Both the position numbers and the translations under genes were made by a program. Under the pieces are notes generated by a model. It made no database searches and had not been told where the DNA came from. It saw nothing but the letters and a program-made list of their open reading frames with translations. 50,927 nt of DNA from an uncultured Sphingopyxis sp. (GTDB lineage Bacteria > Pseudomonadota > Alphaproteobacteria > Sphingomonadales > Sphingomonadaceae), in the NCBI GenBank assembly GCA_937873425.1, contig CALMYE010000303.1, positions 1-50,927 of the forward strand, written 5' to 3'. Positions 10,659-47,040 of this stretch are shown here, in pieces. How positions within the stretch are numbered: the stretch's first letter is position 1; each line of letters begins with the position of its first letter.

Positions 10659-10681
10659 TCAGCCAGCGCCGACCTCGATTA

Positions 10682-10713: not shown

Positions 10714-10730
10714 CATGCCGCCTACCCGAC

Positions 10731-10775
10731 TGGAGGAAAGGGGGAGGGCGGTGTGCGGCAGGGGCAGGCGCCCCG
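10731..10775 (+). repeat. G/A-rich leader tract, copy 3
   Basis: Contains TGGAGGAAAGGGGGAGGGCG, then GGCAGGGGCAGGCG. It lies between the ParB terminator and the helicase start, 67 bases before that ATG. Confidence 0.6.
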
Positions 10776-10797
10776 GAGCCGTTTCAGGAGATCGTCC

Positions 10798-13700
10798 ATG
10801 ACTCTTCCGCTTTTCAAACTCGCCGACACTCCAGATTCCGGCGCCTGGGAAAAGGCCGAACGCCTTCACGGCGTCGCACGGGCTCTGCAAACCCGGCTCG
10901 CCGACCCGCAATCGGTAACGCGTTCGCTGCTCAAAGGTCTCATGTCGGAGGCATTCGGCGGATCGGATGCCGACGGACACTGGTCGATGCGCGATGCCTA
11001 TGACGCGCTCGAAGCGGCGCAGGCTTCGAACATGCTGTCGCTCGATGAAGGCCAAAACCCGGACTGCGCGCCGGAAGTTGCCTTCTCGGCCATTCTCGCC
11101 TTCGAGAAGGCGCTGCCAACCCAGACCTATCGCAGCGAACACCAGGTCGAGATGCAGCAGTTCAGCACGCCAGCCGCACTCGGCTGGCTCGCGACGCGTG
11201 CAGCGGCGATTACGGCCGAGGACCATGTGCTCGAACCGTCGGCGGGCACCGGCATGCTCGCAGCGCGCGCGATCGCCGCCGGAGCCTCCGTAACCCTCAA
11301 CGAACGCGATCCCTGCCGCGCCGCGCTGCTCGCTCTCGTGACGAACGCCGAAGTCACCACGCACGATGCCGAGTTCATCAACGACCGGCTGCCGCCGGAT
11401 GTTCGGCCCACGGTCGTCCTGATCAATCCGCCTTTCAGCCGCAGCGAAGGCCGCGGCGAGGATCGCCACGCCGGTGCCCGCCACCTTCGCTCCGCGTTGC
11501 TCCGCCTCGCCGACGGCGGACGCTGTGTCGCAATCATGTCGCCGGCCTTTGCGCATGACGGCAGCGGCGCCCGCGGCTATGTCTCGGTCGCCGAGATCGC
11601 TCGTCCGCGCGTCGAGATTACCATTCTCGGCCGCCCGTACGTCAAGCATGGGACCGGCATCGCCGTTCGGCTGATCGTCTTCGACAAGGGCTGGATCGGC
11701 GAGACCGAACGCCACACGGTCGATACGATCGAGGCGGCGTTGCCCATCGTGCTTGCGCTCCCGCCCCGGTTGCACCCATCCGACGAACCGCCCCCCGCCT
11801 CGCCGGCGGTGATCCCGTTCCGTCCGGCGCTCAAATCCGCGTCGGGATCGCTCTTTTCCGGGCTCGCGAGCCCCAAGGGCATGGCGCCGTCGCGGATCGC
11901 CGCCAAGGACGATCCGGCCGAACCGCTCGCTTACTCTGTTCGTGACGCGCCGCTACCGGTCGGTGATCCCGTCGGCATTTACGCGCCCTGGCGCCTCGCC
12001 CGGATAGATATTCCGGGCTCGACGCCTCATCCCGACAATCTTGTTGAATCGCTGGCCATGGCGTCGGTACTGCCGCCGATCCCTCAGTATCGCCCGCTCT
12101 TTCAGAAGCGGGCGAGCAGCGCACTGTCCGATGCTCAGCTCGAAGCGATCATCTATGCTGGCGATGCTTTCTCACGCGACCTGCCGGGACGGTTCGTGCC
12201 CAATGAAGCAGGCGACCAGCTGCGCGAGAATGCGGACGGACATGCTTATCGCATGGGCTTCTTCATTGGCGACGGCACTGGCGTCGGCAAGGGGCGCGAG
12301 GGCGCCGCGATCATTCGAGACCAGTGGAACTGCGGCAACTGTCGCGCCGTCTGGATTTCGAGGGGCGCGACACTGATCGAGGATGCGCGCCGCGACTGGA
12401 CCGCGCTTGGCGGCCTCCCGATCGACATCCAGCCGCTCGACGCTTTTCCGCTGGGGCAACCAATCGGCATGGCGAGCGGCATCCTCTTCCTCACCTATGC
12501 GACGCTCCGCTCGCAGCGCCACGACCAATGCTCGCGCCTCCAGCAGATACTCCAGTGGACGGAAGCCACTTTCGAGGGCGTGATCCTGTTCGACGAATCC
12601 CATTCGATGGGCAATGCGGCGGGCACCAAGGACGAATATCGCCAGGCCAAGGGGTCTGAACAGGGATTGGCCGGAGTGCGCCTGCAGAACGCACTGCCGC
12701 GCGCCCGGGTGGTCTATGAATCGGCCACCGGCGCCACCAAGCCCGAGAATCTGAGTTATGCCTCGCGGCTCGGGCTTTGGGGGCCCGGCACGGCCTTCGT
12801 GAACCGCGACGCTTTTCTCGCTGCGATGACCGACGGCGGTATCGCGGCGATGGAGATCGTCGCCCGCGACCTCAAGTCCATGGGTCTCTACACGGCGCGT
12901 GCACTGAGTTTCGCCGGCGTCGAATATGACCCGCTCGAGCATCGGCTGACGCCCGACCAGATAGAGATTTACGATGCCTATGCCGACGCCTGGGCGATTG
13001 TTCACCAGAACCTGGACGAGGTGCTGAAGGCGTCGAATATCGTCGACCGCATGTCGGGTCTGACGATGAACGCCATGGCCAAGGGCTCGGCGCTCAGCCG
13101 GTTCGAGAGCGCGAAGCAGCGCTTCTTCTCCCAAGTGCTGATCTCGATGAAAATGCCGACGGTCGTTCGCGCGATCGAGGAGGAACTCGCTGCCGGCCAT
13201 GTCGCCGTCGTGCAACTGACCAGCACAGCCGAGGCGATCCTCGAACGCCGGCTGGCGGACCTGTCGCCGGACGAACGCGCCAACCTCGCGATCGACGTCT
13301 CGCCGCTCGATACGCTGATCGATTATCTGAAGACCGCCTTCCCGACGCGTCAGATGCGCGCCTTTCGCTCATCCGACGGAGCAATGCGCTCCGAGCCGAT
13401 GCACGATGGCGACGGCAATGCTGTCCTCTGCCAGGAAGCGGTCGCGGCGCGCGACAATCTGGTCGAAAGCCTCTGCTCGATGCCGCCGGTCCCGGCGGCG
13501 CTCGACTTCCTGATCGCGCATTTCGGGACCGACACTGTCGCCGAGGTCACGGGCCGAACGCGCCGCGTTGTCCTCGAGGGGCAGGGGCGACAGAAGCTCG
13601 AGCGCCGCAGCGCAAGTTCCAATATCGCCGAGACCGACGCCTTCATGTCGGGACGGAAGCCGATCCTCGTCTTCTCGGAAGCGGGCGGCACCGGCCGTTC

Positions 13701-15093
13701 CTATCACGCCGACCTCGATTGTCCGACCGCGAACAAGCGGCGCATCCATTTCCTGCTCGAACCGGGCTGGCGCGCCGACATCGCGATCCAGGGTCTCGGC
13801 CGCACGCATCGGACGTACCAGTGGAAGCCGCCGGTGTTCCGCCCCGTCACAACCAACTGCAAGGGCGAGCGCCGCTTCATCAGCACCATCGCGCGCCGTC
13901 TCGATACCCTCGGCGCGCTCACACGCGGCCAGCGTCAGACCGGCGGCCAGAATCTATTCGACCCCGCGGATAATCTCGAAAGCAGCTATGCTCGCGAAGC
14001 GCTGACCCAATGGTATCATCTGCTCCATGCCGGCAAGCTCGCGAGCATCGGTCTCGAGAAGTTCCAGTTTATCACGGGACTGAAGCTCGTCGACGAGAAT
14101 GGAACCCTGTTCGACAAGCTGCCGCCGATCCAGCGATGGCTGAACCGCATCCTCGCGCTCCGCATCGCGACCCAAGATGCCATTTTCGAGGAATATATGG
14201 GGCTCATCCAGGCCCGCGTCGACGCCGCTCGCGAGGCCGGGACGCTTGACCTTGGCGTCGAGGCGATGCGCGCCGAGCGTATCGTCGAGCTCTCGCAGCA
14301 GGTGCTGAGGGAGGATCCTGTATCCGGCGCCGAGACCCGGCTGCTCCGCCTCGAGCTTCACCTCAAACCGCGCGTCACGGGGTGGGCGCGCCTTGACAAG
14401 ATCTGGGGCGGTTCCGCGGATGGCCGGTATCTGCGGAACAGCCGTTCGGGGCGCGTCGCCCTTTGCGTTCCGTCCTGGTCGATCACCGACGACGACGGGA
14501 GGCCCGTCAAGATGATGGAGCTTGTCCGCCCGACCGGTTCGAACCGCATCCAGCTTACAGGTCTCGAGCACACGCACTGGGAGGAGATCGACCGCAAGAG
14601 CTTCCGGAGCTTCTGGGAAGCCGAAGTGACCGAGGCGCTCGACAAGGTCGATATCGAGACGATCAGTGTCGCAACGGGTCTCCTGCTCCCCGTCTGGAAC
14701 AAGCTGCCGCAGGACGACGTTCGTGTCTGGCGGATCGACGAAGCGGCGGGGACGTCGATCCTCGGCCGCATCGTGATGCCCGGGGCGATCGAGAAGCTGG
14801 AATCGGCTTTCGGCCTCACCTCCTCGATCGTGCTGACGCCTGACGAACTGATCGAGGCTGCCCGGCATGGCGACGGCGCCTTGATCCCTGGGCTGCACGG
14901 CGCACGTCTCGTGTCGGCGATGGTGAACGACAGCCGCCGGATCGAGATCCGGGACTTCCGGCCTCAGGACCGCGAATGGCTGAAGGCGCGCGGCGCGTTC
15001 AGCGAGGTGATTGCATACAAGACCCGGCTGTTCCTCCCGGCGGGGAAGGCCGATGAAATCCTGAGCACCGTCATCGCCGAGCCGCCACAGTGA
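10798..15093 (+). CDS. Methyltransferase fused to a Strawberry-notch-like helicase
   Basis: A 1431-residue protein with two parts. Residues about 130-330 form an N6-adenine methyltransferase-like Rossmann domain: EPSAGTGMLAA (SAM-binding, about residue 144) and INPPF (catalytic NPPF, about residue 209). Residues about 430-1100 are a superfamily 2 helicase of the Strawberry-notch type: GDGTGVGKGREGA (Walker A, about 490), FDESHSM (DEAH box variant, about 598) and a C-terminal helicase half with GGTGRSYHAD and QGLGRTHR. These proteins occur on many conjugative elements and phages; a role in DNA processing or anti-restriction is inferred. The start at 10798 has CAGGAG 7 bases upstream. Confidence 0.88.
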   Translation: MTLPLFKLADTPDSGAWEKAERLHGVARALQTRLADPQSVTRSLLKGLMSEAFGGSDADGHWSMRDAYDALEAAQASNMLSLDEGQNPDCAPEVAFSAILAFEKALPTQTYRSEHQVEMQQFSTPAALGWLATRAAAITAEDHVLEPSAGTGMLAARAIAAGASVTLNERDPCRAALLALVTNAEVTTHDAEFINDRLPPDVRPTVVLINPPFSRSEGRGEDRHAGARHLRSALLRLADGGRCVAIMSPAFAHDGSGARGYVSVAEIARPRVEITILGRPYVKHGTGIAVRLIVFDKGWIGETERHTVDTIEAALPIVLALPPRLHPSDEPPPASPAVIPFRPALKSASGSLFSGLASPKGMAPSRIAAKDDPAEPLAYSVRDAPLPVGDPVGIYAPWRLARIDIPGSTPHPDNLVESLAMASVLPPIPQYRPLFQKRASSALSDAQLEAIIYAGDAFSRDLPGRFVPNEAGDQLRENADGHAYRMGFFIGDGTGVGKGREGAAIIRDQWNCGNCRAVWISRGATLIEDARRDWTALGGLPIDIQPLDAFPLGQPIGMASGILFLTYATLRSQRHDQCSRLQQILQWTEATFEGVILFDESHSMGNAAGTKDEYRQAKGSEQGLAGVRLQNALPRARVVYESATGATKPENLSYASRLGLWGPGTAFVNRDAFLAAMTDGGIAAMEIVARDLKSMGLYTARALSFAGVEYDPLEHRLTPDQIEIYDAYADAWAIVHQNLDEVLKASNIVDRMSGLTMNAMAKGSALSRFESAKQRFFSQVLISMKMPTVVRAIEEELAAGHVAVVQLTSTAEAILERRLADLSPDERANLAIDVSPLDTLIDYLKTAFPTRQMRAFRSSDGAMRSEPMHDGDGNAVLCQEAVAARDNLVESLCSMPPVPAALDFLIAHFGTDTVAEVTGRTRRVVLEGQGRQKLERRSASSNIAETDAFMSGRKPILVFSEAGGTGRSYHADLDCPTANKRRIHFLLEPGWRADIAIQGLGRTHRTYQWKPPVFRPVTTNCKGERRFISTIARRLDTLGALTRGQRQTGGQNLFDPADNLESSYAREALTQWYHLLHAGKLASIGLEKFQFITGLKLVDENGTLFDKLPPIQRWLNRILALRIATQDAIFEEYMGLIQARVDAAREAGTLDLGVEAMRAERIVELSQQVLREDPVSGAETRLLRLELHLKPRVTGWARLDKIWGGSADGRYLRNSRSGRVALCVPSWSITDDDGRPVKMMELVRPTGSNRIQLTGLEHTHWEEIDRKSFRSFWEAEVTEALDKVDIETISVATGLLLPVWNKLPQDDVRVWRIDEAAGTSILGRIVMPGAIEKLESAFGLTSSIVLTPDELIEAARHGDGALIPGLHGARLVSAMVNDSRRIEIRDFRPQDREWLKARGAFSEVIAYKTRLFLPAGKADEILSTVIAEPPQ

Positions 15094-25200: not shown

Positions 25201-25797
25201 TCAGCTCTCGTGTGGGGCCGGCCGGAAGTTCCGGAGCATCAGGGCATAGGGCTCCAGGACGTTTGCGACGAGCGAGATCCTGCGGTGACTGAACTCGTCG
25301 TGCGCGCCGGCTCCCGGCTCGACCACAAGGCAGGCCTTGTCGACATTGTCACGGACAAAGCGGCTGCCCGGCCGGCCCGACGACGGGCCTACCGGGATCC
25401 TCGTATCTTCGAGGGGAAGGGTGAAATCCGCTTTGCGCAGGCTGTCGATGCGCAGGGCATAGCGTGACCCCCGGACCTCGATGTCGGCCGGGATTTCCTT
25501 CCAGTTCCGGCCGTCCTCTGAGTATTCGGAAGCAGCCTGCGGCTCGCCAAAATAGCGCTCCGATACCATCTCCTCCATGCATAGGAAAAGCGGCTTGCCC
25601 GCCGACCTGCGTTCCTTCGCGAAAGGCTGTACAACGGTGATAGGGTGACAGATTTGGCCGCCATAGCCCCACAATGTGTAACCCCGCTTGTCGATTTCTG
25701 CTGTTTTGCGGGCGACGATCTCTTCAAGGCTTTCGCGCGCATGGGTGCCGACCCGCATGAAGAAGAGGCCGGTGCCGGGTGTGAGAAAATCGGTCAC
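25201..25797 (-). CDS. Partner protein 1 of the BpsA-like module (RK..LWGYGG family)
   Basis: A 198-residue soluble protein of no family I recognise. Key features: HARESLEEIVARKTAEI, then YTLWGYGGQICHP near residue 40, LCMEEM, EYSEDGRNWKEIP, RGSRYALRIDSLRK, and a RFVRDNVDKACLV segment. It shares all these with the product of 29517-30098. It overlaps the upstream enzyme gene by 4 bases (ATGA), so both are made together. It is the last gene of a minus-strand unit hipB-hipA-enzyme-partner. Confidence 0.75.
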   Translation of the reverse strand: MTDFLTPGTGLFFMRVGTHARESLEEIVARKTAEIDKRGYTLWGYGGQICHPITVVQPFAKERRSAGKPLFLCMEEMVSERYFGEPQAASEYSEDGRNWKEIPADIEVRGSRYALRIDSLRKADFTLPLEDTRIPVGPSSGRPGSRFVRDNVDKACLVVEPGAGAHDEFSHRRISLVANVLEPYALMLRNFRPAPHES

Positions 25798-26621
25798 GGC
25801 TTCGGCTCCAGATACTCAACGTCATATTCGGTGTCGGGCGCCTTGCCATAATCGGGGCGCGATCGCTCCCGGATATACCGGACCTTCGGCTCTTGATAGA
25901 GGCCGTAGAAGTTTTTGAGCCGATCCGGCTCGATCGGGCTGGAAGGCTGCTTGGGTGCCACATTTCCGGGAAGGGCGCGCAGGAACAGATTGCAGGACGG
26001 TATCTCGACATCGAGGTGGTAATGGTGCCGCTTCTGCTGCAGCTGCGACACCCGGTAGCCCCGGTCGGACGCAAAGCGCTGGGCATTGGCGAGCACGTGC
26101 TGAGCCCAGGGCAGCTCGTCGTCATCGGCGATCACCAGCAGGCCTTCGCCTCGGTAGCCGGTGGCCTCAAAGCCGCGCTGCGCGAACACATTGACGCTCT
26201 CGCCGCCATTATGTTCACCCCATGGCGGATTGGTATAAAAGAGATCGAAACGGCCGGGGTCCGGAAAGGGGTCGAGGACATTGTAGTGCTTGGCATCCAG
26301 AATATTGTCGAGCCGCTCTTTGTCGGCGAATCGCAGAACCGAATTGACGATGCGCTCATCGAAGTCGAACACGGTGACCTTTGACGGGCCGAAGCCGAGA
26401 ACCCCGCGTTTGTGGAGATAGGCGACGCAAATGCTCACCGCGTCGCCGTCACCGATAAAGGCCAGGCGCTTGTCGCTGGCCCATGCGGCGACGACCTCGG
26501 ACTGGCGCACCATATCGCCGGTCTTCATGTAAATCTGATCGAAGTCGCGCAACGGGCGCGGCCGGTTCTGGACGACGTCCGAGACCTTGTTGATCGCATC
26601 CCAATGGTCGAGTGACGCCAT
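25794..26621 (-). CDS. Bis-aminopropyl-spermidine-synthase-like enzyme, copy 1
   Basis: A 275-residue Rossmann-fold enzyme resembling the C-terminal domain of archaeal/thermophile branched-polyamine synthase BpsA (DUF43 group). Motifs: RLAFIGDGDAVSICVAYL near residue 52, VTVFDFDERIVNSV near residue 80, and LFYTNPPWGEHNGGESVNVF near residue 126. The NPPWG resembles NPPY/NPPF motifs that bind an amino group near the donor in methyl- and aminopropyl-transferases. What it modifies is unknown. Copy 2 at 28612-29520 is closely similar. The gene lies 41 bases behind hipA on the same strand and overlaps its partner gene. Confidence 0.78.
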   Translation of the reverse strand: MASLDHWDAINKVSDVVQNRPRPLRDFDQIYMKTGDMVRQSEVVAAWASDKRLAFIGDGDAVSICVAYLHKRGVLGFGPSKVTVFDFDERIVNSVLRFADKERLDNILDAKHYNVLDPFPDPGRFDLFYTNPPWGEHNGGESVNVFAQRGFEATGYRGEGLLVIADDDELPWAQHVLANAQRFASDRGYRVSQLQQKRHHYHLDVEIPSCNLFLRALPGNVAPKQPSSPIEPDRLKNFYGLYQEPKVRYIRERSRPDYGKAPDTEYDVEYLEPKP

Positions 26622-26662
26622 TGACGTTTCCCCCGTGCTTCTCTTGCCCGTTGCCCTCGGGT

Positions 26663-27940
26663 CTACCTAGCTGCCGCGCGCAGCAGATCAAGCAGGCGGT
26701 TGCTCTGCGCCCGAAGCGCCGCGTCGAATCTCGCTGCCCATTCGCCGTCTACGTCGCGGGCTTCTGCGAGCGGTGCGACGATCGGTTCCAGTCTTTGCTC
26801 GATGAAACGGCGGGCCGCCGGGCCCGTGAGGCCGAAGCGTGCAAGAAGCGCGGAAATATCCCCAGCGTTTACTTGGTCGGGGTGCACAGCATCGCCGATC
26901 GAAAAGGACAGGCTGTGATTATGCTCAGCACTCAGCGTAATGGGGACGAGATCGTAGAGCGGCGCAAGACGAGGTGACGTGCCGCGATCAAAGAGCAGAG
27001 CGTGGTTCTTGGCGTGATTGTCGGTATTGCCGATGGCAAGATTGAAGATAGTCGCTCGCAGGAAGGCGTCGCTGGAGAGCGCAGGGCTCGCGGTCTGACG
27101 AAGAACCCGCAAGATTGTCTCCACGTCGTAGCGATGATCCGGTCGGCCGTTTCGTTCGTATTTTAGCCGCGGTGGCAATCCAGCGGCCTGCGCGAAATCC
27201 TCCTGATGAATCCGGTAGACGGCACCGTCGCTGACTATGCGGTCGAACCGTTCGCTCAATATGACCTCATAGTCTCCGATCCAATAGGATCGCGAGCGCG
27301 CGGTATCGAGCCCGATGTGATGTGCAAGGCTGCCGCAAGTAGATTCGAAAAACGCTTCCCTTGGAAACGCGAGCTCGGGCACCTTCAGAATATGTGTCGT
27401 CGGCACGCCCGTTCCCGGCCGCGGTACGCCGAACGTGCCATCCGGAAGCTGTGTCAGCGCGATCTTGCGCTGAAAGCCCGAGACAGGGGAGGGGTCGCGT
27501 ATCTCGCCGGGAAGCGGCCGGTTGCTTCCCAAGCGTGCGGCAATTTCGTGGAGCTGGTGCTCGTCGAGCGGAATATAGTCCTCGGCCAGTTGTCCGGGGG
27601 CCTTAACCGGGGGCGAGCCGGCGGGAAGGCAAGACAATGCGCCGGAGAGGTCAGCGCCCAGGTGGTGAAGAATTGCGGCGACGTCGCCGCGTTCCAGCCT
27701 CTCTCTTGCGAGCAGCTGGTCGAGCTGGTTATTCTCCGGCAACAGATTCTGGAAAAAGGCGCTGGCGACGCCGTTGCGATAGGCCCGGTCGCCAAGCGGA
27801 AGTGAGAGCGATATGGGATGCGCGTCGGCAACCCCGAGATAGGTCTCGTTGTAGGTGAAGTTGAGGTCGTCGGCGTTGGCCGAGACAATTCGGCCGACCG
27901 GTTGGCCGAACGCCTCGAGCCAGACGTCGAGTTCGGTCAT
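26663..27940 (-). CDS. hipA: HipA-family serine/threonine kinase toxin
   Basis: A 425-residue protein of the HipA family, kinases that inhibit growth, classically by phosphorylating glutamyl-tRNA synthetase. It has the HipA N-terminal subdomain (FTYNETYLG, ISLSLPLGDRAY, FFQNLLPE), GFQRKIALT, the ATP-binding TTHILKVPE (Lys near residue 187), the catalytic loop AIGNTDNHAKNHALLF (about residue 303) and PLYDLVP in place of DFG. All catalytic residues appear present. Its ATG overlaps the hipB stop by 4 bases. It is followed by the BpsA-like module on the same strand. Confidence 0.92.
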   Translation of the reverse strand: MTELDVWLEAFGQPVGRIVSANADDLNFTYNETYLGVADAHPISLSLPLGDRAYRNGVASAFFQNLLPENNQLDQLLARERLERGDVAAILHHLGADLSGALSCLPAGSPPVKAPGQLAEDYIPLDEHQLHEIAARLGSNRPLPGEIRDPSPVSGFQRKIALTQLPDGTFGVPRPGTGVPTTHILKVPELAFPREAFFESTCGSLAHHIGLDTARSRSYWIGDYEVILSERFDRIVSDGAVYRIHQEDFAQAAGLPPRLKYERNGRPDHRYDVETILRVLRQTASPALSSDAFLRATIFNLAIGNTDNHAKNHALLFDRGTSPRLAPLYDLVPITLSAEHNHSLSFSIGDAVHPDQVNAGDISALLARFGLTGPAARRFIEQRLEPIVAPLAEARDVDGEWAARFDAALRAQSNRLLDLLRAAAR

Positions 27941-28350
27941 GACGCGCGCAGCTCCGCGAAAATGTCGATTCCGGCCGCGGCGCAGCAGCGCAAGACGCGG
28001 TCCGCTTCAAGCGTAGGCTTTCCGCTTTCGAGCTCGGACACGAAGCGGCGCCCGACGCCAGCTAGGTCCGCGAAGCTTTGTTGGGTAAACCCTAGTTGAA
28101 GGCGCGCCTTGCGGACGAGCGCACCCAAATCCGCGACGGTGTCGAGCTGAAACCGTGTCGCTTGGCGCGCAAGAGGCTGCGCGGGTGTCCTGTTTGGCGC
28201 TTCGCTGCCGGCGCCGGTCTTCAGAGTTGAGCGGTTCCCCGCGAGGATGTCCGAGATCGCGGATTGATCGGACACGCGGCCGCGGAGCAACGCATTCAAC
28301 GTTCCTTCGCCGGCTGCTGCCCTCTCGATATCGGACTTTGGTGGCTTCAT
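27937..28350 (-). CDS. hipB: HipB-like XRE antitoxin with long N-terminal extension
   Basis: A 137-residue protein with an XRE helix-turn-helix at the C-terminal half: LGALVRKARLQLGFTQQSFA, then GVGRRFVSELESGKPTLEADRV. HipB binds HipA and represses the operon. Here about 70 residues precede the HTH (rich in Ala, Arg, Ser, Asp), whereas classical HipB is only about 90 residues long in all. CAGGAG lies 5 bases before the ATG. A palindromic operator overlaps the promoter. Confidence 0.85.
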   Translation of the reverse strand: MKPPKSDIERAAAGEGTLNALLRGRVSDQSAISDILAGNRSTLKTGAGSEAPNRTPAQPLARQATRFQLDTVADLGALVRKARLQLGFTQQSFADLAGVGRRFVSELESGKPTLEADRVLRCCAAAGIDIFAELRAS

Positions 28351-28361
28351 GCATGCTCCTG

Positions 28362-28398
28362 TACGGGATCACATAACCCGTATTGGGGGAAGAATCAA
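28362..28398 (-). promoter_or_regulatory. hipBA promoter with palindromic operator
   Basis: On the minus strand, -35 TTGATT (28393-28398) and -10 TATGTG (28370-28375) are 17 bases apart. The palindrome TACGGG/CCCGTA (28362-28367 and 28377-28382) covers the -10 box, fitting repression by HipB. A second palindrome CCCGATCGGG lies at 28409-28418 and a related CGGGAGCG occurs twice (28414 and 28465). Confidence 0.6.
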
Positions 28399-28611
28399 GA
28401 TCAATGTTCCCGATCGGGAGCGTCATAGCGATTTGGCGGCAAGTATGGGTCATTTGCTACCGTTCGGGAGCGCACCGTGAGGAACTAAAATGGAACATTG
28501 CGCAGGCCGTCGCGCTTCGGTACATGTATCCGGATCAAACAGGAGGCTCCCGGCAACGATCGACACCAGCTCGCAGGTCCCAGCGCATCCGCGCCCCTGG
28601 ACGGACACCGC

Positions 28612-29520
28612 ATGAATCCGCTCTTCTCTTGGTTGAAGCGAAAGCGCCGCCCCCCTGCCACCCCCTCGCCGGTTATTCCGAGGCCGCCCCATCAGGTGGA
28701 TTTGCGGCGCGCTATCAACGCGATTTCTGATGTCGTCCAGAACCGCCCGCGCCCGCTGCGCGAGTTCGATCAGATCCACATGAAGTCGGGCGACATGGTT
28801 TTCCAGAGCGAGATCGTTGCCGACTGGGCGGACGGCAAACGGCTCGCATTTATCGGCGACGGCGATGCGATCAGTGTATGCGTCGCCTATCTCCAGGCGA
28901 GCGACGTCCTTCCCTTCGGCCCTGCCCATATAACGGTCTTCGATTTCGACGAGCGGACGGTCAACGCCGTCACGCGCTTTGCCGAGGCCGCCGGGATCAC
29001 CAATCTCGATGCCCGACTCTACAACGTGCTCGATGCGCTCCCCGACGTCGAGCCATATGATTGCTTTTATACCAATCCACCTTGGGGCGCCTCGAACAAC
29101 GGAGAGAGCGTCAACATATTCGTCGAGCGCGGAATCGAAGCGTGCCGCCATGGCGGCGAGGGCATGATCGTAATCGCTGACGATGATGAACTCGACTGGC
29201 CAAAGCAGGTTCTCGCGAGCGTGCAGCGTCGCGCGGCCGAGAAGGGATATTATGTCTCGAAGATGCAGCGTAAGCTCCACGAATATCATCTGGATGACGC
29301 ACCGGACCTGCGGTCCTGCAATCTCTACATTTCGGCTCTTCCGGGCAATCAAGCGCCGGGGATTCCGAGCAGTGGGATCACCGATCCCGTCCGCCTCGAG
29401 AATTTCTACGGCCGCTCCAAAGAAGCCCGAGTCCACTATGTCCTCGAGCGCCACCGGGTGAATTACGGCAAGGCGCATGACGATGAATATGAGCTCAAAC
29501 TGTTCGGAGACAGCCGATGA
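28612..29520 (+). CDS. Bis-aminopropyl-spermidine-synthase-like enzyme, copy 2
   Basis: A 302-residue relative of the 25794-26621 product, with the same VVQNRPRPLREFDQI start of the conserved region, RLAFIGDGDAISVCVAYL, ITVFDFDERTVNAV, YTNPPWGASNNGESVNIF and IADDDELDWP. By eye about 60% of residues agree. The extra N-terminal 30 residues (MNPLFSWLKRKRRPP...) are basic and Pro-rich and absent from copy 1. The start at 28612 is the first ATG that gives a sensible product; the binding site is modest. It is divergent from hipB, about 260 bases away, and overlaps its partner gene by 4 bases. Confidence 0.78.
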   Translation: MNPLFSWLKRKRRPPATPSPVIPRPPHQVDLRRAINAISDVVQNRPRPLREFDQIHMKSGDMVFQSEIVADWADGKRLAFIGDGDAISVCVAYLQASDVLPFGPAHITVFDFDERTVNAVTRFAEAAGITNLDARLYNVLDALPDVEPYDCFYTNPPWGASNNGESVNIFVERGIEACRHGGEGMIVIADDDELDWPKQVLASVQRRAAEKGYYVSKMQRKLHEYHLDDAPDLRSCNLYISALPGNQAPGIPSSGITDPVRLENFYGRSKEARVHYVLERHRVNYGKAHDDEYELKLFGDSR

Positions 29521-30098
29521 ACGCACCCTATAAGCCCGGCGACGGGATCCTGTTCATGAAGGTCGGCGTGCATGCGCGCGAAAGCCTCGAGGACATCATC
29601 GAGCGCAAAGACAAGGAAATACGGGAGGCAGGATATGCTCTGTGGGGCTATGGTGGAAGCACCTGCCATCCGAGCACGATGGTTCAGCCTTTCGGCGAGG
29701 CGATCGGCGCGCGAGGCAAGGTCATCGAACTATGCATGGAAGAAATCAATTCCAAGCATTTCGCAGACCCGATCAGCGCGGCGGAGTATTCGGTTAACGG
29801 CACCGACTGGCACGAGATCCCCGAAGCGATCAGCGTTCGCGGTTCGCGCTACGCTCTCTGGATCGACAATCTGCGCAAAGCGGAGTTCCAGCTGCCGTTG
29901 AACCAGACGCAGGTTCCTATCGGGAACAGCATGGGGCGAAATGGCGGGCGCTATATCAAGGGGCGCGTCGACAAGGCCTGCCTCGAGATGCTCGACGGTC
30001 CCCAGATCCCGAACGATGCCCCGCTTCGCGACATTCCGATTAGCCTCGTTGCGACGTTGCGCAAACCCTATGCGGTATTCCTACGCGGCCAGCGCTGA
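29517..30098 (+). CDS. Partner protein 2 of the BpsA-like module
   Basis: A 193-residue relative of the 25201-25797 product. Shared segments are HARESLEDIIERKDKEI, YALWGYGGSTCHP, VQPFGE, LCMEEI, RGSRYALWIDNLRKAEF and a YIKGRVDKACLEM segment near residue 150. Family unknown. Translational coupling with the enzyme gene (ATGA) matches the arrangement in copy 1, so the two proteins probably work as a pair. Its 3' end overlaps that of the convergent PIN-like gene by 18 bases. Confidence 0.75.
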   Translation: MNAPYKPGDGILFMKVGVHARESLEDIIERKDKEIREAGYALWGYGGSTCHPSTMVQPFGEAIGARGKVIELCMEEINSKHFADPISAAEYSVNGTDWHEIPEAISVRGSRYALWIDNLRKAEFQLPLNQTQVPIGNSMGRNGGRYIKGRVDKACLEMLDGPQIPNDAPLRDIPISLVATLRKPYAVFLRGQR

Positions 30099-30743
30099 GA
30101 GCGCGTCATCGCTGATCAGGATCGGTTCAGCGACCTTGGCGAGATCGCGAAGATAGCTCGCAAGGCAGGCTTCCACTTCTGCGGCCAGAATAGCCTCTTG
30201 GCGGTGGCAGGCGAAGCAGATCGCGGCAGATCGGTCCGCCGTTGGTTCGCTACAGACGTGCGTACGCAGCTGCTCCATGCCGATCCGCGCGGCTATTTGC
30301 CGTAGCAACGCCTCAAGTGGTGCGACGCGGCCTGCCAATTCATTGCGCGCAACCACCGCGAGCGCAGCAATGGCGCGCTTGTCGCCCGTGGCGAGCAGCG
30401 CGCCGCCGCGGTGCAAAAGGATGGCGGCGAGCTGGCTCTCGCCCGTGTCGAACTGGAGATCCGCTCGATTGGCAGCCTCTTCGAGCGCCGCAGCCGTATG
30501 AAGCTCTTCCTCGGTCGGCTCAACCAGCGAGAGGTCATCACACAGCTTGGCGAACGCGGCCTCGGCGGCCACGGGATTCTGAAGGCCAATCTTGCCGAGC
30601 TTGCGCCTGATAACGAAGGCGGCGACGCCCAGCATCGCAGGCGGCCCAGATGCGGTGGTCAGGCAGTCCGTCAGCGGGCCGCCGAGTTGCCACGCCGACA
30701 TCTTGATGAGGACATCATTGTCGAGTAGCACTCTCTCACGCAT
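30081..30743 (-). CDS. PIN-like nuclease-type protein
   Basis: The 220-residue protein starts MRERVLLDNDVLIKMSAWQL, a first strand with acidic residues as in PIN-domain nucleases, and has DTGESQLAAILLHRG and LLATGDKRAIAAL, which match the middle and last acidic motifs. About 60 residues follow with a CFACHRQE segment. PIN proteins cut RNA. The start overlaps the end of the ImmA/IrrE gene by 8 bases, so the two are coupled. Assignment rests on motifs only. Confidence 0.65.
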   Translation of the reverse strand: MRERVLLDNDVLIKMSAWQLGGPLTDCLTTASGPPAMLGVAAFVIRRKLGKIGLQNPVAAEAAFAKLCDDLSLVEPTEEELHTAAALEEAANRADLQFDTGESQLAAILLHRGGALLATGDKRAIAALAVVARNELAGRVAPLEALLRQIAARIGMEQLRTHVCSEPTADRSAAICFACHRQEAILAAEVEACLASYLRDLAKVAEPILISDDALSALAA

Positions 30744-31731
30744 CCGGCAGCCCCATGACGCTGCGGAGATAGTCAGCTGCGTCGTCGGTGAGGGCATCCC
30801 AGCCAATCTGCCGCGAAGCGACGCCGTTCACCTCTTGCCAAAGCGGGCCGGCGTCCGGGTAGAGCCGGTTTAGCGCGGCCATCGCGACTGGCCAGGTTTG
30901 CCGCCGGTACGCAAGGCACAGCGCGAGCGTGCCAGGCTCAATCCGGTAAACCGGCGCCGCGACGCGTACCGCCTGCGCTAGCGTCGGCGCATTGAAATCA
31001 TCGACGTTCGTCTCGATCGTGGGGTCGGGGCTGCCGGTCAGGACGGTCAGCGCGTATTCGTCGGCCTCGCGCTCCTGGCCGTCTCGTTCGGCAGCCATCG
31101 CCGGATCTTCAACGTCGACCAGCGCAGGGGCACCCGCGAGATGGCCGAGCATGATATGCGCAAGCTCATGCGCGAGGGTGAAGGCGAGCTGCGCGGGAAA
31201 GCGCGCATCATGGCCGAGGAGGATGGCGAAGCGTCCGTTCGAATGGACGACCATCGCATGCATTCGCTTTGCCTCGAGGGGAAATACCCGCAAGTGGATG
31301 ACCGGAATTCCGAGCGCCCAGCAGGTCGAGATCAGCCCACCGAGATCCGCATATGGTCTTCTGGCGAGTAAGGCGTCGCGCAGCCGCTCGGCGTCGATCG
31401 CGCCCATCGCGGGGCCCTCTGCAACCGATTGAAGCAACGACTTGCCGATTGCCATCCCAAAAGAGGTCATGGCGGCGCGGGCCGCCTCGTCCTCGGCGGC
31501 CAGGTGCTTGAACCGTGCCTCGTCGTTCCAGACGAATTCGACGCGTTCACCGAGCAGGGGCTGTGAACGCAGACCGAGCCGGCGCGCAAGCGCAAATCTG
31601 AGCTCGGCGCGGCCCGAGGGCGACTCCGCGAGCGTGTCATCCCACCAGCTTGGCCACGCTGCCTCGATCGCGGCCTTGCTGATGCCCGCGCGGCGAAGCT
31701 CGTCTGTCAGTTTTTTGCGTTCCGCGTTCAA
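30736..31731 (-). CDS. ImmA/IrrE-family metallopeptidase
   Basis: A 331-residue protein with the zinc peptidase motif FTLAHELAHIMLGH near residue 189 and a downstream acidic EREADEYALTVL that gives the third zinc ligand. Family members cleave repressors (ImmA, IrrE) and occur in phage, element and defence loci. The first codon is a TTG at 31731, with AGGG upstream; no ATG lies in frame further up. Residues 1-60 have an EFVWNDEARFKHL segment at their end. It forms an operon with the PIN-like gene, and may follow the 31798-32550 gene. Confidence 0.85.
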   Translation of the reverse strand: MNAERKKLTDELRRAGISKAAIEAAWPSWWDDTLAESPSGRAELRFALARRLGLRSQPLLGERVEFVWNDEARFKHLAAEDEAARAAMTSFGMAIGKSLLQSVAEGPAMGAIDAERLRDALLARRPYADLGGLISTCWALGIPVIHLRVFPLEAKRMHAMVVHSNGRFAILLGHDARFPAQLAFTLAHELAHIMLGHLAGAPALVDVEDPAMAAERDGQEREADEYALTVLTGSPDPTIETNVDDFNAPTLAQAVRVAAPVYRIEPGTLALCLAYRRQTWPVAMAALNRLYPDAGPLWQEVNGVASRQIGWDALTDDAADYLRSVMGLPDA

Positions 31732-31797
31732 TCGCCCTGCCGATCCGTTGATCTGACGGTGTTTAGCACCATGAGAACGAAAAGGGAACCTTTGAAG

Positions 31798-32550
31798 CTA
31801 AACCAGCAGGTCGTCATTGAGCGCGGGCCGATCCTTGAGCCGGGCTGCCAGCAACGCCCAGTCGGCTGACGAGGACGACGAAAGATTATCGAGCTGGGCC
31901 TTCTCCGCAGGCCCGATCAGCACCGGATCGCAGAGACGGACCCAATATCCTTCCACAAGTTCCGCTGTCATGCTGACTTCGTAGGAGGCATCATCCCGTT
32001 GAGTCGCGACCTGACGGAGGAGGGCAGTGACTTGCGATGCGCCGACTGGCGCCCCGCGCTCCCCGACGTTGCGAAATGCCAAAGGGTCAAAGCGGGCGCC
32101 GCCGCGGTTGATACGCAGGGAATCATCGCTCCGGCACATGAGCGCATAATGGGCGCGTTTGCGGCCTGCCGAGGTGCCCGCCCGGCTGGTGACGACCGAA
32201 GCCGTCGGCAACCGGCGTGGCGTCCCCGCCGCGTCATAATAGGCGCGCCAGAGAAGAAGATCCTTTGCCTCTGCATCGATTTGCTTCGGCTTGGATTTCA
32301 TGACCGAGAAGATGGCGCTGACAGGCTGCCGCATCATCGCAAAGACGTGGGCGAGCCGCGATGGCGCGTTGCCGACGCCCCACAGGAAAAGCCCTCCGTT
32401 CGCCTCACGTTCGAGCTCCTTGCGGCGGACGATTGCGTCAAGCGACTGGCCCGCCTCGGCCTGCATCCTCGACCAGCACACGAGAGTGTCGCCTGCATGG
32501 GCAGGGGCAGGGAAGGGCGCCGGCGCGATAGTGCGCGGATGGTAATTCAT
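31798..32550 (-). CDS. Distant third member of the partner family (lone)
   Basis: A 250-residue protein. Residues about 35-60 read GQSLDAIVRRKELE...FLWGVGN, matching the SLEEI..RK...LWGYGG signature of the two BpsA-like partner proteins. RAHYALMCRSDDSL also matches RGSRYALRIDSLRK, and GAPVGASQ matches IPVGPSSG, in the same order. So it is a divergent relative, but no BpsA-like enzyme gene is next to it. The start at 32550 has GGAGAG 4 bases upstream. It sits between a MerR-like gene and ImmA/IrrE on the same strand. Confidence 0.6.
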   Translation of the reverse strand: MNYHPRTIAPAPFPAPAHAGDTLVCWSRMQAEAGQSLDAIVRRKELEREANGGLFLWGVGNAPSRLAHVFAMMRQPVSAIFSVMKSKPKQIDAEAKDLLLWRAYYDAAGTPRRLPTASVVTSRAGTSAGRKRAHYALMCRSDDSLRINRGGARFDPLAFRNVGERGAPVGASQVTALLRQVATQRDDASYEVSMTAELVEGYWVRLCDPVLIGPAEKAQLDNLSSSSSADWALLAARLKDRPALNDDLLV

Positions 32551-32677
32551 GAGTCTCTCCAAAGGTGGGTCGCCGCTAGAGCGCCCGCTGCAACAAGGGA
32601 AGGGTGCCGGGGCAGGCTGACGCCCCTCAGCGTCAGGCTGTCGACATTCGTGAGGGGGCATCGGGGTGAGCACAGCA

Positions 32678-33199
32678 TCATGCGGCTTTCCCCTCGCCGA
32701 TTGATGCAAACTGCAGCTCTCCGACGGCCATCGAAAAGAGCGCCTGTTTCTCGCGAGGAATGTTGGAGCGGATTTCCCGAACCAGTTCGCCGACGTTCAG
32801 AACGAAGGCAAAAACCTTCTGTCCGTTGCCCAGTATCTCTTCATGAAGTTGGTCGTAATCGCGAAAACCAACGTCGCTCCCATCGCTGACCACCCAGTTC
32901 AGACCGTGCATTGGAGATTCTCCGTCGGGCCAGAAACTGTCTTGAGAAAGACGTTCTGCTGCGATCTTGAGACGGGAGAGCTGGACGCCGGTGTCGCGGA
33001 AGCGCTGGATCATCTTCGCGACGAGCAGGTCCCGATAGGAATAGTATCGGACACGGCCGCGAGGATTGTCAGCGCTGCTATAGGAAGGAAGCAGGAAGCC
33101 GTGACGTTTCAGATAATCGATCATCGGCATGGACAGCCCACTGATCGAGTGAACCTCGGCCACGCTGAAACCGTTGAGGGCGTCCTTTACCTTCGGCAT
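32678..33199 (-). CDS. MerR-like transcriptional regulator
   Basis: A 173-residue protein with an N-terminal winged helix of the MerR type: FSVAEVHSISGLSMPMIDYL, GFLLPSYSSADNPRGRVRYY, then DLLVAKMIQRFRDTGVQL. The C-terminal part lacks the cysteines of metal sensors and may bind a protein or small ligand. It is the first gene of the minus-strand cluster to 30081 and probably controls it. No clear ribosome binding site precedes the ATG at 33199. Confidence 0.75.
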   Translation of the reverse strand: MPKVKDALNGFSVAEVHSISGLSMPMIDYLKRHGFLLPSYSSADNPRGRVRYYSYRDLLVAKMIQRFRDTGVQLSRLKIAAERLSQDSFWPDGESPMHGLNWVVSDGSDVGFRDYDQLHEEILGNGQKVFAFVLNVGELVREIRSNIPREKQALFSMAVGELQFASIGEGKAA

Positions 33200-37392: not shown

Positions 37393-38489
37393 CTAGTTAT
37401 GTGGATATCCTGGCTCGACCAAGATGGCGTCATCTGGCAGCCGCGGCTGCCGGTTGCGGCCGCGTTTGGCAGCCATTGGGTGCAAGCTTCTGATTTCATT
37501 TGGCATCTTTTGGCTGCCGCAGCTGCCACATGGAAAAACGCCGGTACCGACTCTATTTGGCCGGTACCGGCCTGCAAAGCCGCTCCAGCGCCCCGACGGC
37601 TTCCGGAAATGTGGGAATTTCTGTTCAGTGGCAAAGGCCATTCCGCCTACGAAGCGGGCATATTCATCCGCATAGAGCGTGTCTGATTGCAGGTGCTCCA
37701 CCAGGGCCGCCATGCGTTGCGCAGGGAGCATGCCTTCCAGTGCGCCGCCACCGCGATGCGAATCGGCCATAATCGTCTCTTCAGCCAGGGCAGGGAACTG
37801 CGCGTTTGCGGAAGCGGTCGCTTCGAGCGCCGCGAGATCGTGAAGATGACGCACGATCGTCGGGTCATCACCGACCCTCTCGCGGTCGCGGGTGAGCACC
37901 CGCCAGCAGAAGGCGCTCAGCTTGTCGGCGGCTGTCTCGACCGGATCGACGCACGCAATCGCGGTGATCTCGGGTTCCAATCCACGATACTGATGGACGA
38001 AAGATGCCAGCGGCCGTTCGCCGGTCGCAAGCGGCGTGGGCTTGGCGGATATCTCGGCCTGGATATGGGGGCGGAGCGCGTCATGCCCATCGAGGATCGT
38101 TGGATAGTCCATGTCGATCTGGATGAACCCGTTGCCACTTCCGGCTTCGACCCCGGTTATGACGAATCCCGCTGCCGCCCAGGCATCGGCGAGTCCGTTC
38201 TTGAAGGCGCTCAACGCACTACGTTTTTGCCCCGGAGACTTTTCCAAGAATGCGTCCGAGAGGATGAGCTTGAAATCTAACTCCTCTGAAAATCTCTGAA
38301 TCAGCCCGTGCGCTTTTAGGAGCGACGTTCCCCCTGAAAACACTGGCGTAAGGTCGGGCGTGGCCAGTTGAGAAGGACCTGAATGGCCTGGACGACATAC
38401 CAGTCTTTCTCGACGAACGCTTCGTCGACGCGCAGCGCACCTGCGACGCGCCCGAGCGTTCTTGCGTCAGGCGCGTTCGAGAATGACAT
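37393..38489 (-). pseudogene. AbiEii/AbiGii-type nucleotidyltransferase toxin, frameshifted
   Basis: Two frames together encode an AbiEii-type toxin. The first runs from the ATG at 38489 (MSFSNAPDARTLGRVAGALR, then VEKDWYVVQAIQVLLN). The second continues from about 38366 with LATPDLTPVFSGGTSLLKAH, GLIQRFSEELDFK and the later CVDPVETAADKLSAFCWRV. A lost base near 38366-38371 explains the switch (38316 is the stop of the first frame). The nucleotidyltransferase motif GGTSL...D is in the second frame. After GGMAFATEQKF the last 80 residues are of odd composition and come from the palindrome-rich stretch, so the 3' end seems replaced too. The toxin is probably inactive unless the shift is a sequencing error. 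Confidence 0.7.
37436..37572 (+). repeat. Palindromes and short repeats in the toxin gene tail
   Basis: A perfect palindrome GGCAGCCGCGGCTGCC (37436-37451), further GGCAGCC/GGCTGCC copies near 37470 and 37512, a GCAGCTGC core, and a perfect palindrome GGCCGGTACCGGCC (37559-37572), whose half GCCGGTACCG also occurs at 37540. This composition is unlike the toxin gene itself and may mark the end of an inserted or recombined piece. Confidence 0.5.
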
Positions 38490-39057
38490 AGGCGCCATCA
38501 TAGCCGATCCGGCGGCGGACACGGTTCTTGACGGCAATCGTTCGCCCGGTGGGGACTTGGTTCGTTCGGCCGCTGTTATAATCTCTTGTCTGGCCGGAAT
38601 CGGAGACCGTTTTCCCCAGCCGCTTGAGGGCCTCGGTCGCGAGCCGCTTGATCCCGACGACGGGGGCGGGCTTGCCGGTCACCGGCGAGCGTTCGGCGCG
38701 CGCATAGAGCCCGTAGCCGATCTGGACGAGGCGGCCCTCCTCGGTGACCCTCCGCAGGGCGCGCCCAACGGCATCATAGCTGCCAAACGTCTCGAAATCC
38801 CGGCGCAGGAAGACATTGCGCTTTGAACGAGCCACGCGTCGCGCAACACGATCGGCGATCGAGTTCGAGGACATAGTCGAGCCGCGTGCCCGCCTGCGGT
38901 AACGGCCGCGACCGACACGCACGAGTTTACCATCGTCGACCAGCTTGCGCAGCACGCGGCCAATGGAATCATAATCGGCGTCGAGCGCAATCTGCGCGCG
39001 ATCGACGACTTTCCCCTCGGGGACATAATCCAGAATCTGTTTCGACAGGCTCGGCAT
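38467..39057 (-). CDS. AbiEi-like antitoxin (DUF6088) with two winged helices
   Basis: A 196-residue protein of the AbiEi/DUF6088 antitoxin type of type IV toxin-antitoxin systems. The family segment starts near residue 62: SIADRVARRVARSKRNVFLR, YDAVGRALRRVTEEGRLVQI and GYGLYARAERSPVTGKPAP. Before it stands a further winged helix with the same pattern (KQILDYVPEGKVVDRAQIAL, then SIGRVLRKLVDDGKLVRVGR and GRYRRR), so the DNA-binding unit appears duplicated. Its end overlaps the toxin start by 23 bases. The antitoxin frame is intact although the toxin is broken. Confidence 0.8.
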   Translation of the reverse strand: MPSLSKQILDYVPEGKVVDRAQIALDADYDSIGRVLRKLVDDGKLVRVGRGRYRRRARGSTMSSNSIADRVARRVARSKRNVFLRRDFETFGSYDAVGRALRRVTEEGRLVQIGYGLYARAERSPVTGKPAPVVGIKRLATEALKRLGKTVSDSGQTRDYNSGRTNQVPTGRTIAVKNRVRRRIGYDGAYVILERA

Positions 39058-39259: not shown

Positions 39260-39583
39260 ATGGCAAGACTGACTATTCGTCTTCCCGACGATCTATACGA
39301 CCGGCTCGCGGCCGATGCGGATGCGGCAGGCGCCTCTACCGCGGCCTTCGTTCGTGACGCCCTCGAACAGCTGAACGGCGCCGACCCCTTTGGCTTCCAT
39401 GCCCGCTTCGACGAACTTCATTCGACCGTCATCCAAGTGCTCGCGATCCTCGCGTCCGACGTCGGCGCGCGCGCGCCCAAATCGCTCGCAAAGGGGATGG
39501 AAGATACAAAGCGGCTACTCCTCGACCGGGGACTGATCACCGCTGGCGACCTTCCCGCTCTGGGGGGAGGCGCGTCGTCATGA
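39260..39583 (+). CDS. Ribbon-helix-helix DNA-binding protein of the transfer operon
   Basis: A 107-residue protein starting MARLTIRLPDDLYDRLAADA, followed by a helix with STAAFVRDALEQL: a clear ribbon-helix-helix domain (residues 1-45). The rest is helical. Such proteins bind oriT and help the relaxase and coupling protein, and may repress the operon. AGGAG lies 6 bases before the ATG. Its stop overlaps the coupling protein gene by 4 bases. Confidence 0.8.
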   Translation: MARLTIRLPDDLYDRLAADADAAGASTAAFVRDALEQLNGADPFGFHARFDELHSTVIQVLAILASDVGARAPKSLAKGMEDTKRLLLDRGLITAGDLPALGGGASS

Positions 39584-41643
39584 GCATCTTCCGCAACGAC
39601 ACGCTCGGCAGCTGGACGCGCGGCGGCCAGGCCATCGTCCACAATGTCCGGATGACCACCCAGGTCTTCTTCCAGACCACCCTCGCCGGGCTCAGCATCT
39701 GGGTCATCGGCGCCATCTGGTACGCCTTCGAAAAATCGGATGCCTATCAGCGCTTCGTCCTTACCAAGCTCATTGAGGCAAACTTCAAGGCCGACGCCGC
39801 GCCGGGGACGAACGACCCGGTCCTGTTCCGCACCCCGGATGGCCGCGAATATTGGACGTCGGCCGACTGGCTGGTCGATTCTGTGATCGCGAAGCAGGCG
39901 CTCGAAAAGCTCGAGAGCGATCTCATCGGCGGGGCGATCCTGTCCGGGGTGTTCGCGCTCGCAGCACTTGTCTTCGCCTGGTTCTATTTTACCCGGACAG
40001 GGAAGGGGCTCGGTTCCAATGAATATCTGCGCGGGGCCCACTTCGGGACAGTCCGTCAGGTACGACGCGCGCTTCGCGGCGAAGCGAAGGGCAGCTTCGC
40101 GATCGGGGGCATCAACGTCCCGAACGCTTTTGAAACCGAGCATGTTCTGATCTGCGGCGCTCCCGGCACGGGCAAGACCAACATGATCGTCAAGATGCTC
40201 GAGGGCATCCGCGCCAAGGGCAAGCGGGCGATCGTTTACGACACCGCCGGCACCTTCGTCGAGAAATTCTACCGCGAGGGGAAGGACATCCTGCTCAACC
40301 CCCTCGACGAACGGTCGGCCATCTGGTCGCCCTGGGTCGATGTTCCGCACGATTATCATTATGACCAGATCGCGGAATCGACGATCCCCGACAAGCATGG
40401 CGATCCTTTCTGGCCTAAGGCCGCGCGCGGTACTCTGGTCGCCGTGCTGCGCAAGCTCGCAGCGCAGGGACGCACCTATATATCGATCCTCCTTCACACC
40501 ATCGTCCGCTCCTCGCTGAAGGATTTGTCCGCCTTCGCCGCAGGGACCGATGCGGCGGCGTTTATCTCGATGGAGGGCGAACGCACGTCGGCGGGCGTCC
40601 AGGCTGAGCTCGCGTCGGTGATGCGCAGCTTCGCCTATCTCGATGATACCGACGACGGGCTTTCGATCCGCGACTGGGTGGCGACCGAGGGGGACGACAG
40701 CTGGCTGTTCGTCACCGTGAAGGCCGACCAGCTTCCCTCGCTCCGCCCCCTCATCACGGTCTGGCTCGATATCGCGATCAGCGCGATCATGAGCCTGAAA
40801 CCCGATCAGCAGCGCCGCCTCTATTGCGTGATCGACGAGCTACCCTCGCTCCAGAAACTGCCATCGCTTTCGGACTTTCTCGCACGCGCCCGCAAATATG
40901 GCGGCTGCGGCATCCTCGGGTTCCAGTCTTATCCGCAGCTCGAGGCGACATACGGCATCCAGGATGCCGCGGCGATCACCGGCTATTGCTCGACCTGGGT
41001 CGCGCTCCGGGCGAACGATACCCCCACCGCCAAGCACGTCAGCGAGAATTTGGGACAGGTCGAGCAGGTCGAGGCGAACGAGGGGATGAGCTACGGCGTC
41101 AACGACATGCGCGACGGGGTCAATCTCTCGCGCATCCAGGTGACGCGACCTCTTGTGATGCACACCGAGGTCACGAACCTCCCGAACCTGTCGGGCTATC
41201 TGCGGTTCGGTCGCGACCTGCCCGTCGTTCGCTTTGCGGATCGATACAACGACCTGCCATCCATTGGAGAGGCATTTACCGAACGCCGTCGACTTCCGCA
41301 TCGCATCGCGCCTCTGCCCGCGCCGCCGTCACCATCAGGTTCGGTAGAGGCTGCCCCGTCATCGGCGAAACCGGCGAAGAACGGTGCGCCAGCGCGCAAA
41401 CGGTCCGGGAAGCGCGAAGCGAATGCGAATGCGCCCGAGCTGAAGCTCGATCTCCCGATGGGCGCGTCCGATCCCGCGCCTGAAGACACGAATGGGGAGG
41501 CGCCAACCGACCGGGACGCGCCCGCCGATGGTTCGCCCGATAATCCGGCCACGCCCCTCGAAATCATCGCCCCGCACTGGGATCGCACCCTACGGCAGCA
41601 CGGTCGTCCGGGCGGTCGCCGCCGGCCCGCGAAGCCTGCATGA
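39580..41643 (+). CDS. TraD/TrwB (VirD4-type) coupling protein
   Basis: A 687-residue inner-membrane ATPase that links the relaxase-DNA complex to the secretion channel. Two membrane helices lie near residues 31-48 and 115-133. The cytoplasmic domain has Walker A GAPGTGKTNMIVKML (about residue 191), the Walker B segment YCVIDELPSL (about residue 415), and the later LPNLSGYLRFG. The C-terminal 100 residues are Pro-, Ala- and Arg-rich. TraD/TrwB-type proteins pair with MobF relaxases, as here. It overlaps its neighbours on both sides by 4 bases, so translation of the operon is coupled. Confidence 0.93.
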   Translation: MSIFRNDTLGSWTRGGQAIVHNVRMTTQVFFQTTLAGLSIWVIGAIWYAFEKSDAYQRFVLTKLIEANFKADAAPGTNDPVLFRTPDGREYWTSADWLVDSVIAKQALEKLESDLIGGAILSGVFALAALVFAWFYFTRTGKGLGSNEYLRGAHFGTVRQVRRALRGEAKGSFAIGGINVPNAFETEHVLICGAPGTGKTNMIVKMLEGIRAKGKRAIVYDTAGTFVEKFYREGKDILLNPLDERSAIWSPWVDVPHDYHYDQIAESTIPDKHGDPFWPKAARGTLVAVLRKLAAQGRTYISILLHTIVRSSLKDLSAFAAGTDAAAFISMEGERTSAGVQAELASVMRSFAYLDDTDDGLSIRDWVATEGDDSWLFVTVKADQLPSLRPLITVWLDIAISAIMSLKPDQQRRLYCVIDELPSLQKLPSLSDFLARARKYGGCGILGFQSYPQLEATYGIQDAAAITGYCSTWVALRANDTPTAKHVSENLGQVEQVEANEGMSYGVNDMRDGVNLSRIQVTRPLVMHTEVTNLPNLSGYLRFGRDLPVVRFADRYNDLPSIGEAFTERRRLPHRIAPLPAPPSPSGSVEAAPSSAKPAKNGAPARKRSGKREANANAPELKLDLPMGASDPAPEDTNGEAPTDRDAPADGSPDNPATPLEIIAPHWDRTLRQHGRPGGRRRPAKPA

Positions 41644-47011: not shown

Positions 47012-47040
47012 TGGCCCCCAGTCATGCAGGAAGAATTGTC

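Follow-up and report, generated by a model that had tools for sequence, protein, structure and literature searches.

The stretch of DNA analyzed here, 50,927 nucleotides from an uncultured Sphingopyxis sp. (contig CALMYE010000303.1; hereafter the window), carries a rare, compact, mobile five-gene cassette that encodes a predicted S-adenosylmethionine (SAM)-dependent enzyme related to the polyamine synthase BpsA, a partner protein, a PIN-domain ribonuclease (RNase), an IrrE-like metalloprotease, and p3, a paralog of the partner. Each of the 34 loci with enough DNA, the window included, has all five genes as detected by family profiles, and the genes stay together even where their order or spacing is altered. 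This gene set is not described in the titles and abstracts of the literature searched (open PMC papers only), and it may be a bacterial system of immunity or addiction that has not yet been described. Tentatively, and with confidence short of even, we interpret it as a mobile restriction- or addiction-type cassette built around a nucleic-acid mark. The interpretation is supported by the co-occurrence of the five genes, by the PIN fold of the RNase, by the loss of the BpsA active site together with the METTL5-like loop of the enzyme, by the homology of the partner and p3, and by the YTH matches of the partner; in addition, by the mobility of the cassette, by its Gabija and Lamassu neighbors, and by the toxin-antitoxin operons already predicted to combine PIN, AAA_17, and PUA-like reader proteins.

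Composition, linkage, and mobility of the cassette

The relatives comprise 29 loci from a collection of 84,980 species, together with loci from plasmids, genome draws, and viral contigs. In the plasmid collection the enzyme occurs in 5 of 72,556 records and the partner in the same five; the partner was found in 4/298 genomes of the family and 3/398 genomes of the phylum draw, and the enzyme in 2/385 genomes of the class draw, with the window genome counted each time. Two viral-contig loci (L045 and L046) were reached via the partner. Both hold enzyme and PIN genes and yet were missed by the enzyme and PIN pattern scans of viral contigs, so that these scans, which gave no match, are non-exhaustive; among 50,697 deposited phage records no match to the cassette was obtained at the settings used. 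Nine loci were left out of the 34 because they are short stretches or are cut by contig ends, namely eight enzyme loci missing at least one gene (L014, L032, L037, L038, L039, L041, L044, and L052) and L042, which has a partner and no enzyme. Several of the retained loci are near-identical (L020/L022, L045/L046, and L010/L011/L034), and the 34 therefore do not represent 34 independent events.

The enzyme and partner genes overlap in all 41 rows that show both on one strand, copy 2 of the window included, and by exactly 4 bases in 24 of them; the overlaps were taken from longest-start open reading frames (ORFs), which overstates some, and some rows are near-identical. The preliminary description of this DNA, made from the window alone, treated the enzyme-partner pair as a module. 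The pairing recurs far above chance in the relatives; the pair is, however, not the whole system but a portion of the larger five-gene set. On the other side, partner and PIN genes are convergent in 36 rows, with an overlap in 27, fewer than 30 bases between them in four, and 0.7-3 kb of extra DNA between them in five (L010, L011, L017, L023, and L034). A P-loop kinase of the AAA_17 family accompanies the cassette in 20 of the 34 loci, once as a fragment (L015); its absence from L008 and L035 is uninformative, as these stretches begin inside the enzyme gene. In Pseudomonas koreensis the gene order is different and all six genes are kept.

In 33 of the 34 complete loci the enzyme-partner operon and the PIN-side operon run toward each other, which could suggest that two independent modules, an IrrE-PIN toxin-antitoxin pair and an enzyme-partner pair with no relation to it, are merely transferred together. 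The same would fit the second enzyme-partner pair of the window (copy 1, see below), found without PIN and IrrE genes, and the viral locus L078, where p3 and an IrrE fragment occur with no enzyme or partner. We consider such an arrangement distinctly unlikely, given that all five genes occur in each of the 34 loci, even across 0.7-3 kb of other DNA or in changed order, and that p3, encoded beside IrrE, is a paralog of the partner, encoded beside the enzyme.

Linkage is strict on the enzyme side only, since p3 also occurs without the enzyme or partner. It is present in 12 plasmid records, five of which are the cassette plasmids; four of the remaining seven show no other cassette gene in the stretches examined. 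Among 398 phylum genomes p3 was found in four, three of them also with the partner and the fourth (G608) without. On three viral contigs p3 stands alone in the stretch examined, one of these contigs being 411,618 bases long (L084, 6983-7558), and on another (L079) PIN, IrrE-like, and p3 genes lie at the contig end. Lone p3 could serve in counter-defense or have some other use. A p3-like gene on a Rhizobium phaseoli plasmid (L048, 8968-9657) overlaps an unnamed gene and lies near Shedu, AbiGi-like, TcmP/DUF5131, and methylase genes.

The mobile setting proposed earlier for the enzyme-partner pair is supported for the cassette by an integrase, a relaxase, conjugative plasmids, and phage-family neighbors. 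Within the window lies an integrative transferable element, with an integrase beside tRNA-Leu, a TrwB-like coupling protein, and a TrwC-type relaxase (5771-7263 and 39580-44582). Elsewhere, the cassette is located on two plasmids typed conjugative and two typed non-mobilizable, and on the two near-identical viral contigs, where its neighbors on either side are RuvC-like and primase/helicase genes matching phage families. The enzymes and partners of Gluconobacter and Ameyamaea (L020 and L022) are almost identical, and this near-identity in two genera is a sign of recent transfer. Complete cassettes occur on contigs of Pseudomonadota and Actinomycetota, and a 10-kb contig of a Chloroflexota metagenome-assembled genome (L032) has the enzyme at its end. 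The five-gene set moves among plasmids, an integrative element, and phage-like contigs in two phyla, perhaps three.

Ten proteins from three plasmids were considered as defense neighbors. A Gabija-like gene pair stands directly upstream of the cassette on one plasmid, LmuABC (Lamassu) is located about 1 kb from it on another, and the third encodes an ATPase with Lamassu- and Septu-like matches. These genes, together with the PIN match, leave the defense or addiction role suggested in the preliminary description as the best guess. The 106 flanking proteins scanned at other loci (from 171 picked ORFs; best 25 families of 76 for PADLOC and of 107 for Pfam) include restriction-type enzymes, DrmB, integrases, and also ordinary genes; as there was no control set, no enrichment is claimed. 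Known defense systems were considered for the window genes themselves and rejected, the PADLOC matches being partial or generic only; NCBIfam gave no match, and PHROGs only chance-level matches.

The enzyme, its partner, and p3

The likeness of the enzyme to BpsA, noted earlier, is substantiated by PF01861 (BpsA_C), the sole Pfam family matched above cut-off (E 1.1e-17 for copy 2 and 4.8e-17 for copy 1), and by a search of the enzyme profile against solved structures, in which BpsA was best (E 2e-11). This homology to N4-bis(aminopropyl)spermidine synthase is confined to the catalytic domain, at whose start the enzyme profile begins: its position 11 falls on BpsA residue 128-131, and the cassette enzymes have no counterpart of the N-terminal part that precedes this domain in BpsA. 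Moreover, the cassette enzyme has GDGD and not GDDD (41 and 0 of 41 enzymes, respectively, in a partly redundant set) and NPPWG, also in 41/41, in place of DPP. According to passages of PMC12979288, GDDD is indispensable in BpsA, where Asp159 and Asp160 position decarboxylated SAM.

The catalytic loop points elsewhere. NPPWG conforms in all 41 enzymes to the (D/N)PP(Y/F/W) pattern of amino methyltransferases of the N6-methyladenine (m6A) type, and it is aligned to NPPFG in a match to the ribosomal RNA m6A methyltransferase METTL5, in agreement with the earlier suggestion that this motif marks transfer to an amino group; the match is weak and short (E 0.0012, 71 residues only, over the loop), and overall BpsA is nearer. 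The enzyme also matches part of the PADLOC profile of the mad2 methylase (E 2e-13 and 7e-9); it differs from MADS in that, of the mad1-mad8 set, mad2 alone was matched among nine window genes scanned. Methylase identity is moderately supported, and our best guess from these motifs is a SAM-dependent amino-group methylase, with adenine N6, in RNA or DNA, as the most likely target. Among the modifications of a base, polyamine, or protein originally envisaged, nucleic-acid methylation is now favored, and polyamine chemistry is less likely because GDDD is replaced by GDGD and the N-terminal part of BpsA is missing.

One feature weighs against a methylase: like BpsA, the enzyme ends in an acidic C-terminus, with 4-9 D or E among its last 15 residues as possible aminopropyl carriers. 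Together with PF01861 as the only Pfam match above cut-off and BpsA structures as the best sequence matches, it would suit a BpsA relative that aminopropylates a polyamine, a protein, or a nucleic acid. We nevertheless set aside polyamine synthesis as the likely activity, and regard chemistry of this kind in general as very improbable, in view of the altered GDDD and DPP motifs, the missing N-terminal part, and the constant presence of PIN and IrrE genes beside the enzyme.

Homology between the partner and p3 is indicated by hhalign (probability 93.5, E 2.3e-7), and both carry two tryptophans, W43 and W98, that are invariant in 27/27 rows and may correspond to the aromatic-cage positions of YTH domains. 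A YTH resemblance of the partner was noted ahead of the structure search, and the 50 best entries retrieved with its predicted structure are all YTH domains, the matches being weak. Neither protein has a Pfam match at E 1, YTH, EVE, and ASCH included, and hhalign against nine EVE sequences gave no match. Against solved structures, no match of the partner profile was better than E 0.27, most being to antibodies, while the p3 profile had none at E 1 and the joint partner-p3 profile none at E 10; a viral fold library contained nothing at E 0.001 for the partner. That both proteins would be YTH-like readers of the mark is weakly supported.

The PIN RNase and a possible mechanism

The PIN identity of the candidate toxin is well supported by its AlphaFold model (predicted local distance difference test score 95.8), which displays a clear PIN fold with structure matches to VapC, and by six acidic residues (D8, D10, E80, D99, E102, and D121) invariant in 25 rows; in a sequence search the PIN profile gave no match to solved structures at E 1. 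In contrast to VapC toxins, the cassette PIN has an extra C-terminal helical part and is paired with an IrrE-like gene, with no VapB-like match among the neighbors scanned. The closest known operons are of the (PIN)-GNAT-EVE/ASCH/AAA_17 type, and passages of Bell et al. 2020 (PMC7641849) already predict the combination of PIN, AAA_17, and a PUA-like reader to be a toxin-antitoxin system. They likewise form a mobile, defense-associated unit in which a PIN RNase is combined with a P-loop protein of the AAA_17 family and with proteins resembling modified-base readers. However, the cassette proteins scanned have no Pfam match to GNAT, EVE, or ASCH, and the cassette has instead the BpsA_C-fold enzyme, the IrrE-like protease, and two paralogous partner proteins.

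We infer a methylation-coupled toxin mechanism. The enzyme, aided by the partner, would methylate an amino group, most likely adenine N6, in RNA or DNA; the partner and p3 would bind this mark in a YTH-like manner; and PIN, as the toxin, would cut RNA in the way of VapC under the control of the IrrE-like protease acting together with p3. In a normal cell the mark would keep the toxin harmless. Should the mark be disturbed by a phage or a competing element, or should the element be lost, the RNase would act and growth would stop. If so, the action of an RNase toxin would hinge on a nucleic-acid mark, in a small system that lends itself to testing. A methylase lineage with its origin in a polyamine-synthase scaffold would also come to light, along with a reader family invisible to sequence profiles, and the database name "bis-aminopropyl spermidine synthase family protein" would be misleading. 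A bolder version, which we think unlikely to hold in full, is that mobile elements of bacteria carry a complete m6A writer-reader-RNase system of their own, comprising an adenine-N6 methylase that evolved on a BpsA scaffold, two readers that are YTH-like yet unlike the known YTH and EVE families in sequence, and a mark-dependent PIN, with lone viral p3 as counter-defense. Such a system would be a prokaryotic parallel of the eukaryotic m6A machinery, used for immunity or addiction.

Alternatively, the mark could reside on the invader. In this modification-targeted defense the partner and p3 would recognize modified invading nucleic acid and recruit or unleash PIN, and the enzyme would edit or complete the mark and not protect the host. 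Prokaryotic YTH and EVE domains are described in modification-dependent restriction in passages of PMC7641849 and PMC11090510, defense genes adjoin the cassette, and lone p3 on viral contigs could be counter-defense. Such a scheme, however, needs no methylase in the same cassette, and copy 1 retains the enzyme and partner without an RNase; we give it only a minor chance.

The two enzyme-partner pairs of the window

The window had been described as containing two diverged copies of one two-gene module. Their coordinates (Table 1) and common motifs, GDGDA, VFDFDER, and NPPWG in the enzymes and RK...LWGYGG and VDKACL in the partners, were borne out, with identities of 60% for the enzymes and 52% for the partners. 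A 4-base overlap is present in both pairs as claimed; it reads ATGA, the sequence given earlier for both, in copy 2, and GTGA in copy 1, because partner 1 starts with GTG. Copy 2 converges on three conserved genes (30081-32709), the PIN gene overlapping the partner gene by 18 bases, and copy 1 is without these.

Table 1. Genes of the cassette and of the second enzyme-partner pair in the window (aa, amino acids)
Gene	Position	Strand	Remarks
Enzyme copy 2, BpsA_C-fold, predicted SAM-dependent	28612..29520	+	302 aa; GDGD and NPPWG
Partner copy 2, no named family	29517..30098	+	193 aa; W43 and W98 invariant
PIN-domain RNase (predicted)	30081..30743	-	ORF extends to 30806; start 30743 inferred from relatives
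ImmA/IrrE-like metalloprotease, HExxH	30736..31731	-	331 aa; immediately upstream of PIN
p3, partner paralog	31798..32550	-	ORF extends to 32709; start 32550 inferred from relatives
Regulator-like gene, MerR-like by eye only	32678..33199	-	downstream of p3; kept in three sphingomonad relatives (L007, L008, L009)
Enzyme copy 1	25794..26621	-	275 aa; PF01861 E 4.8e-17
Partner copy 1	25201..25797	-	198 aa; GTG start
hipA	26663..27940	-	PF07804 and PF13657 (Pfam)
hipB	27937..28350	-	PF01381 (Pfam)

The enzyme tree places copy 2 with Novosphingobium (99/93) and copy 1, on a long branch and with its place unsure, in a set of seven rows (97/97) that also includes Methylobacterium, Lichenibacterium, Sphingomonas guangdongensis, two Acetobacteraceae, and a plasmid enzyme; in the partner tree copy 1 is unresolved, again on a long branch. 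Local duplication is not supported, since the copies stand apart in the enzyme tree, but the long branch keeps this from being firm. We favor the reading of copy 1 as an orphan pair for marking or immunity that was acquired separately and that, lacking a toxin behind hipBA, would be comparable to a solitary methylase beside a restriction system; such a pair is expected if the mark protects against the toxin. It could also be a decaying remnant of a full cassette, as its lack of PIN, IrrE, and p3 genes and its long branch in both trees would allow. We find this somewhat doubtful, as neither ORF is interrupted and the pair retains every enzyme motif and the start/stop overlap.

The hipB-hipA genes do lie between the copies and read into copy 1 across a 41-base gap, as first described, and their identity is confirmed by Pfam. 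As a regular part of the cassette hipBA is not supported: in one set of searched loci, the window excepted, HipA relatives (28-33% identical) were near only two, L018 and L024, at a distance of 2-3 kb.

Finally, the same element carries an AbiEi/AbiEii-type toxin-antitoxin pair (window 37396-39057). Elsewhere in the window, a single protein with HEPN and nucleotidyltransferase (Polbeta) matches (47011-47970) resembles a fusion of a HEPN-MNT toxin-antitoxin pair, and a Strawberry-notch-type helicase protein of 1491 aa with AAA_34 and Helicase_C_4 domains is encoded at 10618-15090.
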